Positions 4,335-38,216 of a stretch of DNA of 38,343 bases are shown here, one piece after another. Location of the stretch: positions 1 to 38,343 of the IMG/VR virus record IMGVR_UViG_3300024355_000202, one strand, 5' to 3'. This stretch comes from a virus. The translations under genes and the position numbers were made by a program. The notes below the pieces were generated by a model that had not been told where the DNA came from, made no database searches, and worked only from the letters and a program-made list of their open reading frames with translations. Position 1 is the stretch's first letter, and the number at the start of each line of letters is the position of its first letter.

Positions 4335-7300
4335 TCAGGTGGACGTTTCTATTGTAAAGATGCCTGTCTGGACATTGATTTCTTCTGAAATCACGCTCTT
4401 GCGGGCAAGTGTGACTGGGTAGTGGCTGGCGACGACTTGCACCAGTCCGTCTTGGTCAAGCTGCAGTGATTCGACCAAGTACACCAAGTTGTAGGTATTG
4501 CTATTATCGCGGATCGCAAAGAAGGCATTTTTGTCGCTTTGTACTTTGTTGTTGATGTCTACGAAAATTTGCGTTTCTTTGACTTCGCGGTCTGAGCGGT
4601 CCCAGAGGAAAACGTCGTGCTGCTGATTTTGCGCCAGTGGTTCGGATGAAATAACGCTGCCGTCTTCGGTGATGTAACCATCGTTGTAAATAGCAGTGTT
4701 GTAAATGTTCTGCTGTGTAACAACGCGGATGTAGTCACCTGGTGCCAGTGCGTTGCCGTAAGGCGTGGTTTTAAAACTAATCGTGTGGGTGATATTACGG
4801 CGCACGCTCAGGAAATACTTGGCGACGAGGGCAGCGTGTTCGTAGCTGGTGATATGGGTGAAATTAAACTCTTCGATTGGGGCGTTTGACCATGCCGGAT
4901 CGTTGTTGTACGACGCCAACACTGTGCGCTCTTCCGGGAAACGGTTGGGATATTCAGAGCGGTAACGCAGCGCCACCTTCATTGGCTTGCGCTCTTCTGA
5001 GTTGAGGTAATTCAGCTCGAAGGAATCTTCGATGATGTTGCCGTCCGTAAATAGCGCTTTGACCAAAATCGAAGGCGTTACCGGGAATTTCGGCATCATC
5101 AGGTAGGTGGTCGGGTCATAGGGCAACGCAGGCTCAAGCGCAAATTTGCCGTTACGTGTGACCATGTTGCAAAGCATGGACGGCGCGATACTGGCGACAA
5201 AATCGCGGATATTCGTTGGCTCAACGATCACGTCGTCGTAGTACAACTTATTGGCTTTCAGGAAGGATGCCGTCGTGGCAAAGGAGCCAAGATCAATCTG
5301 ATTCTTGTCAATCAGTTCACCCAAGCCCGCTTGGCTGTTGGTCAGTAAGTAATAAACCAGATCGCTGAAAATGTTGGATGACTCGGTGGCGGCGTAACTG
5401 ATGATGTTGCCCTGCGCTGTGCGCTCGTGGCGTTCTACGAGGATGCCGTTTTTCTGATAGATGTGCAGTTGCTCCAGTCCGGCAAGGTTGCGGGAGCTGC
5501 GAACTTTTAAGCCCGCCATGGCGCAACCCGTGTAGGTAGCGTTTTTTCCGGGGTCGATACTTTCGTTGACGTAAACGATTTCGTGTTCGGCAGCGCTATC
5601 GCAACTGCGGGTAATTAAATCGCCATAATGGGAGACTTCAGAGATCGCCGCATTGGCCTCAAAAATGCGCTCGGCATCGTCGATATTGGTTTGCTTGTCA
5701 GCTTTTCTGATGTTCAGGCGGAAGGTATAAGTAATCTTGCTACCGTCAAATAAAGTTTTACTGATTTGATACTCAGTACCGTCTTTCCATTTAGTACTCG
5801 TAACACCAGGAGAAATGTAGATAGGATCAATGCTGTCAATAGTCCACCAAATATCTCGATTATTGTTATACGGACCGAGTAGTTGAGTTGCACGCAAAGT
5901 CATCTTGAGCTGCATCTCGGTTGAGTCAGCTCCGGTTAATTTGAACAATGCGGCATCGGCATCTACAAAGGTATATGTACCGCCTAAAGGTGTGCCGCTC
6001 CAAGGGACATTCGGGTACGCACCCTCAGAAGCATCTGGGTCGGGATCTTTGTTAATTGCTTTTGCGATACCGTTACTTACTTGTTTTTCGTTGGCGGTAA
6101 CGCCGTTTACTTCTGCTCGCACCAAGGTCACAACAAAAGTAAATGTCGTGGTTGTAGTCGGATTGCTGCGGCGCCCGTTGACCATTTGCGGGCTAATTGC
6201 TATATCACCAATGCGCTCTTCAATGCCTTTAGTGTAAAACGTAAACTGCTGATTGTTGACAAGCGTAGGAACTTTTACGAAATTTTCTTTAGTGTCTAGC
6301 CGTAAAAAACCACTATTGCTGCCAATAATTTGAACTAGCTCGCCCGAACTTAGTGGTCGCAAGCGGAATTCCCACTGTTTTAAGGGGTGAGCAATTCGTA
6401 AGTAGTTGAAAATATCGCGTGGTGCATTACCGCGCACGGCCAAAGGGATTTGATTGATGCGTGCCCAACTAGCACTTGGTCCAGCATCTGCTGGACGTAC
6501 ATACAGCGAGAAAAAGCTGTAGCGCATCCCATAGGTTTGGACAGTACCAGCCTGAACTTGGATATTACGGTCGTCTAGATCCGATAGTTTTGCTGGTCCT
6601 GGTAGGGAGATGAAGTTTGTAAGACCGTTGAATCGCATCCACACTTGTGAACGGATGCCGATTTCGGTGTAACTGCACTGACGAACATTTTGGAACGAAG
6701 CTATATCTTGTTGGCACAGCGGATACCATGCCTGACCAATGTCTACGCGAGGACCGTTAATGTTTTCGGGAAGTGCTTTTTCGTTAAACACATACGTCGG
6801 ATTTACTAAGCCGATGGACCCTTGGGCGGCGTCGTATATTTCTTCACATTGCAGCGTTACAGTAATGTCCGCTGATCCGTTGCGGTTAAATACAGGTATA
6901 TCTCTTCTTAGGACACAAAATAAGCAATTACCGATTACAAATTTTTCACCAGATTGAAGCAAATTATCGTATTGCTCCAGCTCGCCGCTAATGTCAGATC
7001 GTATGCTTTCATTGTCTACCGCGCCTTTGCGATAGCGAGTTGCGTCTTGATTAAATAATTGCGACTCAAGTTCGTTTGTGTCTAGTTTTGTCCCGCCAAA
7101 ACGTAATTCGATTAAATCGCCAACAACAACGGTACTGATCGGTTTTCCGTTGTTACCGGTGATTGCATCAGCCGTTTCTACGCTGCCTATTTTTGGAACA
7201 AATCGGAGAACGCCTACGCGGCGTGGATAATTTCTGCCCGTGCCGTTCATTGCGTAGTTGCCCGCAACCTGAAGGCGACGAGCGTTGGCATCTTTTTTAG

Positions 7301-8204
7301 CTTCCTCTTCGTAATCCGCTAAACGTGAGGCGATTTGCCAGTTGACGCGATAAGGCGTTCCATTCGGGATGGCGTTGTACGTGCCAAAACGAAGTTGATT
7401 GCTAGGCGAATACGTGTGAGAAAACGCTTCGCTGTCACCGCCGGCAAATGTTGGAGCAAAAAATACGTTGACCTGGGGGTTATCAATCTTGTTGAACTCA
7501 CCGTGGCGGTAATGTTGACCCGTTAGGCGGCTGTCTGTGCTGTAACCGATGCCGTTTGCGTTGGGTTCACCGCCTTGGTAGTAGTACCAAGAGAAATCTT
7601 GGTCGCTAAGGGAGTCAATCGGTGATTGGCCGATGAAAAGACCAGCGAGATCAGCGGCTTTTTGGGTCGCATTGGTGGGATCAAACGCACGCGACATACG
7701 CCCTTGCCCGACCAAAAATACGAGGTCGGCAGATTGGTAGTTGCCCCAGCTAAATAGCCGTGACCAGACCAGCTTGGGGCTGATCATCACACCGCCGGTA
7801 TAGCCGCCAGCAGTATTGGTTAGGGACGGATCTTGTAGTTGCTTGGTAAAAATAATAGGAATTGTTTCGCCGTAACGGGAGATGTCTTGTCCTGCTTGGA
7901 AGCCGTAAGTAGGAGCGAAACGATCACGCCCGGTGATGCTGTCGAGCTGGCGGTTGCGGATGCGAGCTTGGTTAGCTTGAGCTGGCTTGGGAGTTAAAAG
8001 GTAACTAGCTGCTGTAGACAAGACACCTACAACTAGGCTGATGATGCTGATTGTTAGGGGATCGCATCGAATATCTGGTATATGCGCATATTCAGCCGAA
8101 CGCTCTCTGTTTTGCCAAAGTAATTCTTTTTTGTGCGCTTTATATTCTTCCTCCGTAAGCCCGAGAAGTTCAATTAGATCTTTTTCATACGGTAACAGCG
8201 GCAT
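4335..8204 (-). CDS. Tail tip protein, J-like host-contact protein
   Basis: The largest gene of the window, 1289 aa from ATG 8204. A 25-codon N-terminal extension to 8279 is open but overlaps the NlpC-like gene and looks less natural than MPLLPYEKDLIELLGLTEEEY. Residues about 49-70 form one hydrophobic segment (LTISIISLVVGVLSTAASYLL) before KPAQANQ, a layout often seen in J-like tip proteins. The following region (DRFAPTYGFQAGQDISRYGETIPIIF) is the conserved hub start of this class. The middle is beta-rich, and the end includes PGDYIRVVTQQNIYNTAIYNDGYI, typical of the J/phage-tail-protein-3 region. It follows the gpK-like gene, as J follows K and I in lambda. Confidence 0.8.
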   Translation of the reverse strand: MPLLPYEKDLIELLGLTEEEYKAHKKELLWQNRERSAEYAHIPDIRCDPLTISIISLVVGVLSTAASYLLTPKPAQANQARIRNRQLDSITGRDRFAPTYGFQAGQDISRYGETIPIIFTKQLQDPSLTNTAGGYTGGVMISPKLVWSRLFSWGNYQSADLVFLVGQGRMSRAFDPTNATQKAADLAGLFIGQSPIDSLSDQDFSWYYYQGGEPNANGIGYSTDSRLTGQHYRHGEFNKIDNPQVNVFFAPTFAGGDSEAFSHTYSPSNQLRFGTYNAIPNGTPYRVNWQIASRLADYEEEAKKDANARRLQVAGNYAMNGTGRNYPRRVGVLRFVPKIGSVETADAITGNNGKPISTVVVGDLIELRFGGTKLDTNELESQLFNQDATRYRKGAVDNESIRSDISGELEQYDNLLQSGEKFVIGNCLFCVLRRDIPVFNRNGSADITVTLQCEEIYDAAQGSIGLVNPTYVFNEKALPENINGPRVDIGQAWYPLCQQDIASFQNVRQCSYTEIGIRSQVWMRFNGLTNFISLPGPAKLSDLDDRNIQVQAGTVQTYGMRYSFFSLYVRPADAGPSASWARINQIPLAVRGNAPRDIFNYLRIAHPLKQWEFRLRPLSSGELVQIIGSNSGFLRLDTKENFVKVPTLVNNQQFTFYTKGIEERIGDIAISPQMVNGRRSNPTTTTTFTFVVTLVRAEVNGVTANEKQVSNGIAKAINKDPDPDASEGAYPNVPWSGTPLGGTYTFVDADAALFKLTGADSTEMQLKMTLRATQLLGPYNNNRDIWWTIDSIDPIYISPGVTSTKWKDGTEYQISKTLFDGSKITYTFRLNIRKADKQTNIDDAERIFEANAAISEVSHYGDLITRSCDSAAEHEIVYVNESIDPGKNATYTGCAMAGLKVRSSRNLAGLEQLHIYQKNGILVERHERTAQGNIISYAATESSNIFSDLVYYLLTNSQAGLGELIDKNQIDLGSFATTASFLKANKLYYDDVIVEPTNIRDFVASIAPSMLCNMVTRNGKFALEPALPYDPTTYLMMPKFPVTPSILVKALFTDGNIIEDSFELNYLNSEERKPMKVALRYRSEYPNRFPEERTVLASYNNDPAWSNAPIEEFNFTHITSYEHAALVAKYFLSVRRNITHTISFKTTPYGNALAPGDYIRVVTQQNIYNTAIYNDGYITEDGSVISSEPLAQNQQHDVFLWDRSDREVKETQIFVDINNKVQSDKNAFFAIRDNSNTYNLVYLVESLQLDQDGLVQVVASHYPVTLARKSVISEEINVQTGIFTIETST

Positions 8205-8542
8205 TTGGGTGCTGCGCACAAAGGGAGCCAAGCCACCTTCAGCAGATCCCGATTGATGTAGAAAATGCCGTCTTGCCACGTAACCCCGAAAGCCCAGTTG
8301 TCGTGGGCAAGCATTACCACGTCACCATCGTACTGCGGCTGTGCAACACGACGACCCCATTTGTGGATGTCGCGTAAGACCGTTTTGATGTCGGCGGTGT
8401 ACCAGTCAGCTTGGAACTCAGGCGTGGGGATGCCTAATCTGCCCAGCACTGTGTAAACCAAATGGATGCAGTCGATTGCTCCGTCGCTGCCATCAGCGCC
8501 AAGGCGGTAAGGTTTGCCGACAAGATCACTGCAATCGCACAT
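8174..8542 (-). CDS. NlpC/P60-like tail assembly protein (gpK-like)
   Basis: This 122-aa protein starts at ATG 8542 (MCDCSDLVGKPYRLGADG); a longer reading to 8566 lies within the end of the upstream gene. GAIDCIHLVYTVLGRLGI matches the NlpC/P60 nucleophile helix, with Cys25 in the DC pair. GDVVMLAHDN (73-82) matches the second strand. The usual catalytic His of the HxG motif is not there: the residues read WAFGVTW. His80 lies four residues earlier. In lambda-like tails this domain is part of the gpK assembly peptidase. It overlaps both neighbours by 17-31 bases. Confidence 0.7.
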   Translation of the reverse strand: MCDCSDLVGKPYRLGADGSDGAIDCIHLVYTVLGRLGIPTPEFQADWYTADIKTVLRDIHKWGRRVAQPQYDGDVVMLAHDNWAFGVTWQDGIFYINRDLLKVAWLPLCAAPKCRCYRMKKI

Positions 8543-9026
8543 TGGCGGTGGTAGGCAGCGGACCAAACAGATCCTCCGTCAGACGGCGGCGTGGTACATC
8601 AGCACCAACGGCATCCAGGATGTTGCCTAGCTCCAGTTCGATGGTGGGACCGGCGTACACGGCAGCCACCACCATGCCGGTATAAGTGCTGAGAGACCGA
8701 AACTTTGTACGGTCATCCGGGTCGAACAGCATCGTTTCAACCTCAGCACGCCAGCCAGATTGGTTGAGCAGTTTTGCTGATACTGCCTGCGTAATTCCGT
8801 TTTGCGGAAAAATCAGATTGGTGGATTGGTTGTCGCCGTTTCGGTTGACTGTGACGCCCGTAAAACCAAAAGGAACAGCAGAGCCGTAAACGTCGCCTTG
8901 GTACGTGAAGTCGCCGTCTGAGTAAAAGTTTTGGTACAGGTACGGGAGGGTGTTTTTGTAGTAGAAGCGCACCAGGTGCCCGTAGGCAATCTGATCGCTA
9001 AATTCTGGCCCGGTAGTAACAGTCAT
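8526..9026 (-). CDS. Distal/minor tail protein downstream of tape measure
   Basis: This 166-aa protein directly follows the tape measure (GTG... stop and ATG 9026 share a base) and precedes the NlpC-like gene, the slot held by the lambda gpL type or DUF2163/DUF1833-like proteins. The sequence includes TMLFDPDDRTKFRSLSTYTGMVVAAVYAGPTIELELGNILDAVGADVP, a strand-rich pattern with a conserved Pro-Arg-Arg-Arg at the end. No zinc or iron-sulphur cysteine cluster, as in gpL, is present. The role as part of the tail tip ring is inferred from gene order. Confidence 0.55.
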   Translation of the reverse strand: MTVTTGPEFSDQIAYGHLVRFYYKNTLPYLYQNFYSDGDFTYQGDVYGSAVPFGFTGVTVNRNGDNQSTNLIFPQNGITQAVSAKLLNQSGWRAEVETMLFDPDDRTKFRSLSTYTGMVVAAVYAGPTIELELGNILDAVGADVPRRRLTEDLFGPLPTTANVRLQ

Positions 9027-11665
9027 CAGATTCCGAGGCGGCTACGGGTTGACTGGGATTGCTTGAGGCGGCGGATGGTGGCTTGCTCGCCGCGTTGAGC
9101 GCCTTGCGCTGCAGCCTGTTGCATACCAGCGCGGAATTGGTCGGCGGTGACGTAATCCACGGAGTTGATGCGTTCCACGGTGTAACGCACGTCGATGGAT
9201 GCTGGTGCCATTGTGGCAGTGCCGCCCATGCCGTCACCACCTTCGCCGGCAGGGATTACAGCGGAGCCGCGAGCGCCAGCCGAGTAACGAGACATGGCAG
9301 AGCGCATTTTGCTGGCGGGGATGACGTATTCCGGTTCGCCGCCTTCGCCTATTAGTGCGCGAGTGGGACCAGTGACAAAACCACCTTCGGCGTAGCCCCC
9401 AATTTTTAATCCAGGGACTGCCGCTGGCTGAGCCAATGCTCCAGTACCAGTCAAATTCTTGCCCGCAGTTGCGCGGGCGCTAGCACCACTTAATGCGTTG
9501 TAAATTGACTGCAGAATAATTAAAGTCATCTGCTTGGCAATAATTTCAACTGCCATGCTGATAAAGGCATCCCCAATCTTCTTGAAGGCATCCGCCAGCG
9601 CTTCTTGAGTTGATTTGGCTCCTGTAATTACTTCGCCAAATGCTGTACTAAAAGCATCGCCAATCGCGGTAGCGCCATTAACGATGGTATCGACTTTCAG
9701 CTTGATTGGGTCTAACTCTTCTTTTAATTGTGAGATCTTGTCTGTTAAACCCGACGCAACTGTGCCTTTGCCTTCAAAACTAAAGTCTGTGCCTTCAAGC
9801 GCTTTGCTGAAAAGCTCTTCAGCTTCTTCGGCTTGTCTTTTAAGTTCTTCTGTTTGCAGTTTAATTATTTCAAGCCTTTGTATTTCAGTGTTTAACTGAT
9901 TAAGATTGGTTTGCTGTTCAGTGTTCTTTAGCTCGGAAATCTGCTTGGCGCGATCTTCAAAGTCAAATTGAATTTGCAAACGTTTTTGCTCGATTTCATC
10001 GGCTTCTGCAAGCAGCAGTACTTGACGTTTAAATTCAGTACCAAGCCGATCACCTGTTTCAAGAGATCGCTTTAGCTCTTCGGCTAAACGCTTGGCTTCT
10101 TGTTCTGCATCTGAGAGACCTTTTTTACCGCCACCATTTGCCTGTTTGTCTAGGCTATCTAAGATGGCTTGAATGGCAGGATCCACGCCTATGGGAGCGC
10201 CACCTCCTCTATTAGTTGCTGCGCCAGCACCCAAAAGACGTTTAATTTCTGGCTGCTGCTTGAGAAGTTCAGCAAACTTTTGTGCATTAAATCCAAGCCC
10301 GAAAAGCCCAGTACCTGCGCCAGCTTGCCTTTGCAATTGCTGCCTACGTTTCTGGCCAATTAACTCGTCAACGCCAGGAATAACTCTGGCAGCCGCATTG
10401 CCGCGAAGATCACCAGACTCAAGGGCGCTTTTAAGAATGGTTGTATTTTTGCCAAGACTGAAAAGCTGACCCAAGACGTTGATGCCTCTGGTTGCCTCCG
10501 CAATCACTACATTGATTAGCCTGACAATTCCACCAAGCGCAGGACCAAGAACAGTATCAAGTGATCGGGTTAGATTCCCAATCTGATTGATCATTTTTGA
10601 TACTTCACTTGAAACAGTACCGCCAAGCTCCTTTGTTGCGTCATCTGCAACGCCCGAAACTTTCGCTTGTCTTTCAATGTTTTGGTTGTATTTAACAAGG
10701 TCATCGTTGACCAATGGCAATACTGCTTTGAGTGCGTCAACGCTGCCAAACAACTTGACCATAGCGGTCGTGCTGCCACCTGTCCTTTCTTTTACTTCTT
10801 GCAGTAATCCACCAAAACCCTTTGCTCTTAAGCCTGCCTCATTGAAGTCAATTCCCAATGCCTCCGCAAGATCACTTGCCTCTTTGCTTGGTTTTAATAT
10901 TGAAACCAGTGCCTGATTAAGACCCGTAAACGTTGCCTCAACCGGAACGCCTTGTGCCGTAATTGTTGCAACAGCAGCGTTCAACTCGGTGATGCCAACT
11001 CCAGCCGCCGCCGCAGTAGGCGCTAATTTACCAATCTGTTGTGCATATTCATTAAGAACAATTTTGCCGTCGTTTTGAGTTTGAATAAAACCATCAACCA
11101 AAATTGCTGCGTCATTCGCTGACTTTCCGTATGCGTTAAGGACACTGGTAACCGCATTGCCAACAGTGTTGATGTCTGACAATCCGCCAACGGCACCTTT
11201 TGCGGAAGCTTCAAGAATTTTTGCATTGTCAGCAGCATTAGCAAAGCCGGCACTAGCTACGTCATATGAAGCAGCAAGCAATTGCGTTTGAGAAAACAAA
11301 CCTCCAAGACGGTTACTTACTGCAAGAAGTTGACCTTCAAGAGCTTTGCTGTCTACGCCAAGTGTGCGAACTGCAGCGGCAGCCTTTTCGGCTTCATCAA
11401 ATCCCTTGAAAAACCGTCTAGCTAAATCAGCAACAACTAATTGCGCGGCAAGGTTTTTTACTGCGCCGCCAAGAATATCAATTTTCTTGCTAGCGCCTTG
11501 CGCGGCATCGCCCAATTTGACAAAACGGCCATTTGCATCCCGCAGACGACCATTTACGTCTTGATATGTCTGGTCTAGCTTGCTGCTGACTTGCTCAACC
11601 TGACGCAGCTTCTGCACCGCATCACGGCTGTCAACGTTAATGGCAACGCTGGCTACGACAGACAC
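9026..11665 (-). CDS. Tail tape measure protein
   Basis: This 879-aa protein begins at GTG 11665, three bases after the T-frame stop. The N-terminal 100 residues are helical and charged (SRDAVQKLRQVEQVSSKLDQTYQDV). Residues about 100-340 carry the TP901-type core (LLAASYDVASAGFANAADNAKILEASAKGAVGG, then NAVTSVLNAYGKSANDAAILVDGFI). A hydrophobic stretch lies near 375-400, and a long Glu/Lys/Gln coiled coil spans about 510-640. The end (GGYAEGGFVTGPTRALIGEGGEPEYVIP) is the usual tape measure C-terminal motif. With the known rule of roughly 0.15 nm per residue it would set a tail of about 130 nm. Confidence 0.92.
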   Translation of the reverse strand: MSVVASVAINVDSRDAVQKLRQVEQVSSKLDQTYQDVNGRLRDANGRFVKLGDAAQGASKKIDILGGAVKNLAAQLVVADLARRFFKGFDEAEKAAAAVRTLGVDSKALEGQLLAVSNRLGGLFSQTQLLAASYDVASAGFANAADNAKILEASAKGAVGGLSDINTVGNAVTSVLNAYGKSANDAAILVDGFIQTQNDGKIVLNEYAQQIGKLAPTAAAAGVGITELNAAVATITAQGVPVEATFTGLNQALVSILKPSKEASDLAEALGIDFNEAGLRAKGFGGLLQEVKERTGGSTTAMVKLFGSVDALKAVLPLVNDDLVKYNQNIERQAKVSGVADDATKELGGTVSSEVSKMINQIGNLTRSLDTVLGPALGGIVRLINVVIAEATRGINVLGQLFSLGKNTTILKSALESGDLRGNAAARVIPGVDELIGQKRRQQLQRQAGAGTGLFGLGFNAQKFAELLKQQPEIKRLLGAGAATNRGGGAPIGVDPAIQAILDSLDKQANGGGKKGLSDAEQEAKRLAEELKRSLETGDRLGTEFKRQVLLLAEADEIEQKRLQIQFDFEDRAKQISELKNTEQQTNLNQLNTEIQRLEIIKLQTEELKRQAEEAEELFSKALEGTDFSFEGKGTVASGLTDKISQLKEELDPIKLKVDTIVNGATAIGDAFSTAFGEVITGAKSTQEALADAFKKIGDAFISMAVEIIAKQMTLIILQSIYNALSGASARATAGKNLTGTGALAQPAAVPGLKIGGYAEGGFVTGPTRALIGEGGEPEYVIPASKMRSAMSRYSAGARGSAVIPAGEGGDGMGGTATMAPASIDVRYTVERINSVDYVTADQFRAGMQQAAAQGAQRGEQATIRRLKQSQSTRSRLGI

Positions 11666-11668
11666 GGC

Positions 11669-11857
11669 TTACCTACGGCGTTGCTTCAGTCTACGTTCCT
11701 GCTCCTCATTGGTCAGATCAAAATACGCCGACCACAACAGCAACTCCTCTAGAGTCACCTCAGAATTGAGTTGAGCCAATGAATAGCCCAGCTCTTTTGC
11801 AACGCCGAGTTGTAGCAACAACAGATTGTCTTTTTTGAGATCAGCCTTTAGAGCTTT
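11669..11857 (-). CDS. Tail assembly chaperone T extension (other frame)
   Basis: After the G stop a second frame stays open for 62 codons, from a TGA at 11860-11858 to TAA 11669. It reads KALKADLKKDNLLLLQLG, then LGYSLAQLNSEVTLEELLLW, then SAYFDLTNEEQERRLKQRRR. The LTLEELLLW-like part followed by a helix with EE pairs is the hallmark of the T part of lambda-type chaperones. It has no ATG and lies in the +1 frame relative to G, so it should be reached by +1 (or -2) frameshifting within the 20-base overlap, where AAA-A and AAA-G offer +1 re-pairing for tRNA-Lys. It ends three bases before the tape measure start. Confidence 0.75.
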   Translation of the reverse strand, partial: KALKADLKKDNLLLLQLGVAKELGYSLAQLNSEVTLEELLLWSAYFDLTNEEQERRLKQRRR

Positions 11858-12200
11858 TCATGTCTAGCTCTTGCTGCTCCTCGGGGTTGGTAATGATCGC
11901 CAGCATCATGGCTTGAAGATCGGCGTCAAGCACGTCATTTTTCAGCTCGGCAATTTCACCGGCTTGAAACAGGCGCTGACCAGCCTCGTCAACTGCTTTT
12001 GTTACCAGCAGGTTCAAAGCAAAACCATTGGCGTCATCGCCTCCGGGCATTTTCTGCGCACGCTCACGCTCTGCCATGGTCAAAGCCGTGGCGTAAAACT
12101 CAAACACATCGCCATTTGCCAAAGTCACCACACGCTTGATAGGCGTCAAATTTGCAGCCTTTTTCAGCCGGGCAAGAGCAGACGATGTAGGCGCAGGCAT
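11841..12200 (-). CDS. Tail assembly chaperone G
   Basis: A 119-aa acidic protein in the slot between tube and tape measure. RVVTLANGDVFEFYATALTMAERERAQK matches the usual gpG-like start, where a short beta domain (tube-like) is followed by helices. The C-terminus ends at TGA 11841, and the neighbouring frame carries the T domain. G and GT bind and organise the tape measure before the tube is built. It lies downstream of a terminator that follows the tube gene, which fits its need for lower amounts than the tube protein. Confidence 0.75.
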   Translation of the reverse strand: MPAPTSSALARLKKAANLTPIKRVVTLANGDVFEFYATALTMAERERAQKMPGGDDANGFALNLLVTKAVDEAGQRLFQAGEIAELKNDVLDADLQAMMLAIITNPEEQQELDMKSSKG

Positions 12201-12285: not shown

Positions 12286-13041
12286 TCAGGCAGTAGCAAA
12301 GTCAAAGGTTGGTACGCCAGACGGGCGGAAGGTGATTTCAACCTGTTGAGCATCGTCGGGGTTGATATTTAGGCTGGCGGTCAACAGCACGGCATCCATG
12401 GCGATGGAGCGGCTGAGGGCCTCGGTGCTTTGCTTGTCGGTATACAGCTTGAAGGCGCAACCAACTTGCTGACGCTGCAGCACGTCTTCCACCATGCGGT
12501 TAGACAGGGCGCTGTCTTCGTTGGTGACATAAATGGTGGCAGTACCGTTGCCATCCGCAAAACCGGGGATATAGGCGCGGAAGGGCGCATACTGACCGGC
12601 GGTTTGACCAATGGTGGTCACGTCGATTTCAGCACGGCTGATTTCAAATGACCAGGATTGAACCTGACCGACAGCGGCGTAATCGGCGTAATACACCTCA
12701 AACTCATTGGGTGAAGCCACGGTGCCATCGTCGGTAATGGCAAGGATGGTGCCACCAGCAGCAGTCGATACGGTAAGCGCACCAGTTGCAGCGGTGTAGC
12801 TCAGAACGTAATAGGTAGTGGCGTCAGAGATAGGCGAGGGCAGGGTGCCGGTGCCAGATCCACCAGTTTGACTATTGACGACGCGGAACTTAACAGGATC
12901 GCCCGCCTTCAGATTGAGATAAGTCTGAACAGTGATCGTGTCAGTACCAGCATTCACGCCAGACTCACCGAATGTACCGGTGGTGCCAGCGGGCTTGTAA
13001 TACAGAGCGCCGGACGTGCCGGACAAAACAGTGACAGCCAT
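12286..13041 (-). CDS. Major tail tube protein
   Basis: A 251-aa beta-rich protein before the chaperone and tape measure genes, the normal place of the tube protein. QSWSFEISRAEIDVTTIGQTAGQYAPFRAYIPGFADGNGTATIYV is the tube-family core. The end, ASLNINPDDAQQVEITFRPSG, matches the closing strand pair. Residues about 30-110 (INVQTYLNLKAGDPVKFRVV-like part with DATTYYVLSYTAATGALTVS) look like an inserted beta domain that could decorate the tube surface. The gene is followed directly by a terminator. Confidence 0.85.
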   Translation of the reverse strand: MAVTVLSGTSGALYYKPAGTTGTFGESGVNAGTDTITVQTYLNLKAGDPVKFRVVNSQTGGSGTGTLPSPISDATTYYVLSYTAATGALTVSTAAGGTILAITDDGTVASPNEFEVYYADYAAVGQVQSWSFEISRAEIDVTTIGQTAGQYAPFRAYIPGFADGNGTATIYVTNEDSALSNRMVEDVLQRQQVGCAFKLYTDKQSTEALSRSIAMDAVLLTASLNINPDDAQQVEITFRPSGVPTFDFATA

Positions 13042-37361: not shown

Positions 37362-38216
37362 GTGCCACACACCCTCCAAAGCGCATGGGCCGAGTTCCAC
37401 GCAGAGCGTTCTGCTGTCTTGTGTCCCACCAGTCTCATGGCGGACTACAGGCAAGTCGACAAGTGGATCGGTCGCTGTCCGGTTACAGAACTGGAGCAAG
37501 GCAGGCAGGTTCTTACATGGGTTTTGAGCCAGCAGCCCGTCAAGTCCAGCCGCAGGGTGGCTATGTATGTCAAGGCCCTTTATCGCTGGGCCAGCAGCGA
37601 AGACATTGCCTACCTGCCTAAAAATCCGATTGCCAGTTTTCGGATGCCTAAGGCGCCCCAGATGGATGAAGAAATCATCGTAATTCCACGCAGCGAAGTA
37701 GCGCTTTTACTCACTGCTCTAGAAGCTCGCCAAACAAAATGTGGCGCACGTTGGTCGGCTTACTCTGAATTTATGCTCCAGACAGCAATGCGTACAGGTG
37801 AAGTTCGCGCTGCCAAGTGGACTGACCTAAAGGATGGGAAGTTATTGATCCATTGCAATTACACCCTTACGCATGGCCTGAAGTTTTCTACAAAAACAAA
37901 CAAGAAACGTGTTGTACCTTTAAACGAAAAGTGTTTAGAAATTCTTGATTCCGTAGACAAGGACAATGAATATATTTTCCCGTACAACAGGTATGCGTTC
38001 CAGAGTTTTTTCTATGACAGAGCCAAGGAATTGCACACTGCTGGATTAACGAGTCACCGTTACCGGCCTTACGATCTGCGCCACACAGCAATCAGCCGGT
38101 GGATTGAGGCAGGAATACCCGTGGCGCAAGTCGCAAAGTGGGCCGGCAATACGGCTGAGGTTATTTGGAAGCACTACTGCAATACAACGCAGGACTATGA
38201 AATGCCGACGCTTTAA
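37362..38216 (+). CDS. int: Tyrosine recombinase/integrase
   Basis: A 284-aa protein from GTG 37362. The N-terminal 100 residues form a SAM-like arm and core-binding part (QVDKWIGRCPVTEL to RWASSEDIAYLPKNPI). The catalytic set is Arg144 in TAMRTGEVRA, the beta-hairpin Lys in STKTNKKRVVPL (about 178-182), YDLRHT (Arg240, His241), and Tyr272 in WKHYCNT. The usual His before DLR is Tyr, and the second His/Trp position is Asn (WAGN), a variant known in phage integrases. It should integrate the circular phage DNA at a host site. No tRNA end or core site was found next to it. Confidence 0.9.
   Translation: MPHTLQSAWAEFHAERSAVLCPTSLMADYRQVDKWIGRCPVTELEQGRQVLTWVLSQQPVKSSRRVAMYVKALYRWASSEDIAYLPKNPIASFRMPKAPQMDEEIIVIPRSEVALLLTALEARQTKCGARWSAYSEFMLQTAMRTGEVRAAKWTDLKDGKLLIHCNYTLTHGLKFSTKTNKKRVVPLNEKCLEILDSVDKDNEYIFPYNRYAFQSFFYDRAKELHTAGLTSHRYRPYDLRHTAISRWIEAGIPVAQVAKWAGNTAEVIWKHYCNTTQDYEMPTL

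Follow-up and report, generated by a model that had tools for sequence, protein, structure and literature searches.

In phage lambda, the tail assembly chaperone genes G and T lie between the genes for the major tail protein and the tape measure protein (order: major tail protein, G, T, tape measure), and two products are made from one start by a -1 shift at G_GGA_AAG, in a short overlap near the end of G. Siphophages mostly use -1 shifts in this gene pair, Mu uses -2 and some phages use +1, as remarked in the sequence-only reading of this DNA and in agreement with published accounts (PMC5009743; PMC10885494); the three kinds of shift occur in different phages (PMC5009743). Annotated +1 frameshifts of tail assembly chaperones are on record from mycobacteriophage Karhdo (PMC10793310) and from the training set of PRFect, which includes 350 forward sites; according to the PRFect paper, no motif common to forward shifts in general has been identified (PMC10885494). 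In eukaryotes, Ty1 (CUU_AGG_C) and Ty3 (GCG_AGU_U) shift +1 with an AGN codon awaiting decoding in the A site (PMC5009743), and a change between -1 and +1 has been described in a conserved frameshift gene of fungi (PMC3777964). The RF2 gene (prfB) shifts by +1 P-site re-pairing at CUU_UGA.

The window, i.e. the whole stretch of DNA analysed, is a virus record of 38,343 bases from a siphophage. Its major head protein is 75% identical to that of cyanophage KBS-S-2A and 73% identical to that of Synechococcus phage S-H1, and a cyanobacterial host is therefore likely. As in lambda, a G/T pair with a short overlap near the end of G is placed between the major tail protein and tape measure protein genes (Table 1). 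When genome contigs were scanned with G, neither of two scans found a prophage or host copy. Elsewhere in the window, an open frame at 37362-38216 (+) resembles a tyrosine integrase by eye, and the phage would then be temperate. Two listed open frames on the minus strand (8174-8566 and 4335-8279) share 106 bases in different frames, and the true start of the longer one is probably downstream of its first GTG.

Table 1. Coordinates of the G/T locus and flanking genes in the window
Feature	Coordinates	Strand	Evidence or remark
Major tail protein gene, before G	12286..13041	(-)	phrog_158 E 2e-7
Gene G, tail assembly chaperone, short product, 119 aa	11841..12200	(-)	Open frame, profiles, fold, gene order
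T-frame TGA closing T upstream	11858..11860	(-)	Sequence; in the window limits the shift to the few codons that follow
Proposed +1 shift site AAA_AGC	11853..11858	(-)	AAA_AGN in 226/226 distinct +1 overlaps
P-site AAA	11856..11858	(-)	
Zero-frame A-site AGC	11853..11855	(-)	
+1 A-site codon GCT	11852..11854	(-)	
G stop codon TGA	11841..11843	(-)	Five codons past the shift codon AAA
T domain, 62 codons, +1 frame of G, no start codon	11669..11857	(-)	phrog_26456 E 9e-6; open frame starts directly past the T-frame TGA
T stop	11669..11671	(-)	
Tape measure protein gene, after T	9026..11665	(-)	phrog_991 E 3e-41, PhageMin_Tail E 5e-26

G is a tail assembly chaperone, as judged from profiles, the fold match of its model and gene order. 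The protein matches phrog_20784 (E 7e-35). The profile phrog_344 'tail assembly chaperone' is matched by 20 of 26 G-family members (best E 6e-6; the window's own G alone reaches only E 0.009) and Phage_TAC_13 by 7 of the 26 (best E 6e-4). The top fold match of the AlphaFold model of G (mean pLDDT 78) was the HK97 tail assembly chaperone 2ob9, with a Foldseek probability of 1.00 and an E of only 5e-3; VIA gave Z 8.5 over 101 residues with an rmsd of 7.2. A PDB sequence search with the G profile returned no match. The homologue of G in cyanophage S-2L is annotated 'putative tail assembly chaperone'.

The overlap comparison comprised 524 loci, in which T was placed by a profile scored separately for each reading frame. 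T lies in the +1 (equivalently -2) frame of G, as had been read from the letters of the window, and the same +1 relation was found in 327 loci (226 distinct overlaps); T was in -1 in about 190 loci. Among the scored loci of the initial scans, T was +1 in 147 of 148, the lone exception being KBS-S-2A. A sequencing error as the source of the +1 frame is ruled out by this recurrence in the initial scans and in the wider set. Counted from the first T codon through the G stop, the G/T overlap of the window measures 17 nt; the 20 bases given previously are correct when the T-frame TGA is included. This upstream TGA is not essential: some relatives have TCC, GCC, ACG or other codons before AAA, and a longer open T.

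T had also been described as a domain without a start. Upstream of its conserved core, T contains neither ATG nor GTG, and none of the columns ahead of this core is a conserved start codon in 97 sequences of the window type, 56 of the freshwater type and 65 of the marine type (the names 'freshwater' and 'marine' serve only to label groups). With no start of its own and an overlap with the end of G, T has the marks of a domain read only as a frameshifted extension of G, and the predicted GT fusion is 176 aa long: 115 residues of G, followed by ALKADLKK... TTG and CTG codons near the beginning of T, and a G stop that falls within the T frame, might allow T to be translated separately, either from a non-standard start codon or through coupled re-initiation in the vicinity of that stop. 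This explanation is highly improbable: no start column is conserved in the 218 sequences of the three groups, and it leaves unexplained both the invariance of AAA_AGN described below and the -1 heptamers found in the same gene pair of relatives.

Within the short stretch where a shift is permitted, an in-frame AAA_AGN was found in every distinct +1 overlap, down to about 40% identity (chance expectation for AAA_AG, from codon pairs elsewhere in the same G genes: ~0.25%). The A-site codon is AGC in 211 of these overlaps, AGT in 12, AGG in two and AGA in one, and the codon ahead of AAA is free (ATG, TTA, TTG, CTG, TCC, GCC, ACG and others). Lysine at the site is encoded by AAA in 226/226, with an AAA:AAG ratio of 922:817 at the other lysine codons of G. 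By parsimony, AAA and AGC of the site, alone among the conserved degenerate codons, are unchanged throughout 95 window-type sequences (median of 18 changes over 65 conserved degenerate columns). The shortest overlaps, such as TTG AAA AGC TAA (8 nt), permit a shift at AAA or AGC only. In the window, AAA_AGC was observed twice versus 5.1 expected, one occurrence being the site itself, numbers too few to claim avoidance. AGC is not a rare codon there (23.5 per 1000 codons).

The sequence-only reading had listed two candidate re-pairing sites, AAA-A (11855-11858) and AAA-G (11846-11849), and had proposed an alignment of related overlaps. This alignment retained the first, with AAA_AG(C) invariant in the 226 distinct relatives, and not the second, in place of which relatives carry GAA, CAA or something else. 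A shift at AAA-G, or at both sites, could draw on the presence of AAA-G in the window and on the 12 window-type relatives with another AAA_AGC directly before the stop; many relatives have GAA, CAA or AAG contexts instead and the site is absent from the 8- and 11-nt overlaps, so that its use is given almost no weight. Transcriptional slippage on the A run, which would produce a mixed mRNA population, has an equally negligible probability: the site does contain AAAA, but four As are far below the run lengths known to slip in bacteria, and slippage would explain neither the invariant G nor the flanking frame.

Two sequence features near the site were noted in subsets of the relatives. The second AAA_AGC, right before the G stop (ATGAAAAGCNNTAAAAGCTGA), occurs in loci L008, L026, L052, L069, L072, L079, L086, L100, L109, L112, L113 and L135, where it perhaps offers a second chance to shift. 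In the marine +1 group (L188, L200-L279), 62 sequences share without variation the 12 bases GAGGCTAAAGCC at 18 to 7 nt before the shift codon AAA. Four successive codons have no change, a conservation well above codon expectation, and the 12 bases include an inverted repeat GGC-TAAA-GCC. They are missing from the other +1 groups.

The frame relation alone fits +1 and -2 equally, and in Mu this gene pair is joined by a -2 shift (PMC5009743), with a resulting frame like that of the window. At the invariant codons, a -2 slip would place AAA onto NNA (mostly TGA or TAA) and AGN onto AAA, so that a single base still matches in most sequences. Over the whole permitted stretch, most sequences offer at most two matches for a -2 slip (more in only 15/226), and none of the possible -2 sites is conserved. 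At +1, tRNA-Lys can move from AAA to AAA with perfect re-pairing in 226/226. Because re-pairing is perfect at +1 and inconsistent at -2, the comparison strongly favours +1, and a -2 shift is considered very unlikely. Two features expected of a programmed +1 shift, a +1 second frame kept in relatives and a conserved P-site re-pairing site, were both found here.

The reading that we prefer, with a probability of about 0.88, is that a +1 slip of the P-site tRNA-Lys at AAA_AGN joins the G and T parts of the chaperone. Most ribosomes would read G through to its TGA and release the short product. A minority would move one base forward at ATG AAA AGC: the peptidyl-tRNA-Lys would unpair from AAA and pair anew with the AAA that starts one base further on, at a time when the zero-frame AGC (in the family, AGN) still awaits its tRNA in the A site. 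Translation would continue in the T frame with GCT, and the resulting GT fusion would read ...ELDMK-ALKADLKK... If the shift occurs in this way, its frequency would set the G:GT ratio as in lambda, with roles presumed for both products. Slow decoding of the AGN codon would be the driver; for AGC in the host, such slowness is assumed and is the weakest step, AGC being common in the phage.

That a slow AGN codon after AAA may favour shifting is independently indicated by a yeast reporter, in which AAA-AGG-C gave 1.20 versus 0.053 for AAA-CGT-C and 0.023 for AAA-ATT-C, about 20 to 50 times more (PMC4627075). AAA-ATT-C also permits re-pairing from AAA to AAA, and the A-site codon therefore matters too. 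Ty1 and Ty3 differ from the window in being eukaryotic and in having another P-site codon, and slow decoding has been shown for them whereas it is inferred for the window. The likeness to RF2 is limited to +1 P-site re-pairing: the A-site codon of the window is AGC instead of a stop, and no RF2-like Shine-Dalgarno was found 3 nt upstream of the shift codon, with no Shine-Dalgarno energy at -2 to -6. Purines resembling a Shine-Dalgarno are present 11-20 nt upstream of the shift site and are compatible with the acidic tail of G. The chaperone +1 sites of PRFect share gene and direction with the window, and AAA_A falls within the PRFect 'four' motif class; the difference is that one five-base core is invariant over deep divergence in the window's family. 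Unlike Mu, this family has no -2 re-pairing at the conserved codons.

The same two domains are joined at -1 in KBS-S-2A, S-H1, S-2L, the pelagiphages HTVC026P and HTVC202P and many environmental contigs. An X_XXY_YYZ heptamer was found in 138 of 139 distinct -1 overlaps (A_AAA_AAC 115, G_GGA_AAG 14, A_AAA_AAA 4, A_AAA_AAG 4, C_CCA_AAG 1), so that some relatives in the family use the lambda heptamer itself. T is at -1 in each of 26 S-H1-type loci. The canonical heptamer arrangement is present in the KBS, S-H1 and L357/L470 groups and absent from the window and its clade. The KBS-S-2A pair (HQ634187) has a homologous G (69% identity), a homologous T (73% over the core), the same gene order and a homologous junction; it differs from the window in having T in -1, with A_AAA_AAC and a covarying hairpin in place of AAA_AGC.

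In the KBS group, this hairpin starts about ten bases past the heptamer, has compensatory changes and folds with a consensus energy of -34 kcal/mol; two +1 groups folded likewise gave -10 and -4 kcal/mol. For downstream windows of 50 and 80 nt, mean z was -3.7 and -5.5 in the KBS group, -1.1 and -2.1 in the L357/L470 group, -2.6 and -0.9 in the S-H1 group, and -0.2 to -0.8 in all three +1 groups (control windows within G, all groups: about +0.1 to -1.3). No stimulatory downstream structure beyond control was thus found in the +1 groups by folding and in 50- and 80-nt windows. The +1 groups contrast strongly with KBS and moderately with the remaining -1 groups. The window's clade accordingly departs from lambda in three respects: it has a +1 site at AAA_AGC, its T occupies a different frame, and its downstream structure does not exceed that of controls. 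It had been suggested that a -1 homologue of otherwise equal sequence would speak against the +1 frame. Homologues with T at -1 do exist, but they are not otherwise equal: their junction differs, with a heptamer and mostly a structure, which indicates a change of mechanism and not an error.

Several particulars of the -1 loci were recorded. MED4-184 (L363, locus ~2740-2765) is the sole -1 member without a heptamer; it reads GCA AAG GAA TCC TAA AGGGGG, possibly with an A_AAG tetramer as the site. Some -1 loci (L182, L487, L509) carry the lambda-type G_GGA_AAG where their near relatives have A_AAA_AAC. The T domain is unannotated in the deposited KBS-S-2A (L002, 6313-6528) and in several relatives (L360, L361, L362, L363), and a separate short CDS is annotated where T lies in S-H1.

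Phylogenetic trees were built without the junction columns. In the best tree, the +1 clade of the window is nested in a KBS-like -1 grade (support 96/93), separate from the freshwater (L184, L199, L355) and marine (L188, L200) +1 groups, and three to four frame changes are needed on the trees. In the AU test, the larger sample rejected a single +1 clade (p 0.02) and the smaller sample did not (p 0.22). That one and the same AAA_AGN core was reached repeatedly is favoured, though not proved, because of the number of changes required on the trees and the AU result of the larger sample; exchange of the short junction between phages is the alternative. We tentatively propose, at slightly less than even odds, that AAA_AGN is an autonomous, structure-independent +1 signal, reached at least twice from -1 heptamers of the same gene in phages of marine and freshwater picocyanobacterium-type hosts; the mechanism would have changed while both domains stayed homologous.

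The open-access literature yielded no report of a natural phage +1 site at AAA_AGC. As far as that literature shows, +1 frameshifts in chaperone genes were already known, and the deeply conserved AAA_AGN core with -1 sister groups is new. No general +1 motif had been recognised before in phage tail genes (PMC10885494); here a five-base core, AAA_AG, is kept in 226/226 distinct sequences, with close -1 counterparts as natural controls. With this core, annotation tools could recover the T domains missed in KBS-S-2A, MED4-184 and the pelagiphages. In this family, the -1 and +1 forms of one junction can be exchanged in reporters, and one can ask if it is the G:GT ratio, and not the direction of slippage, that is under selection.
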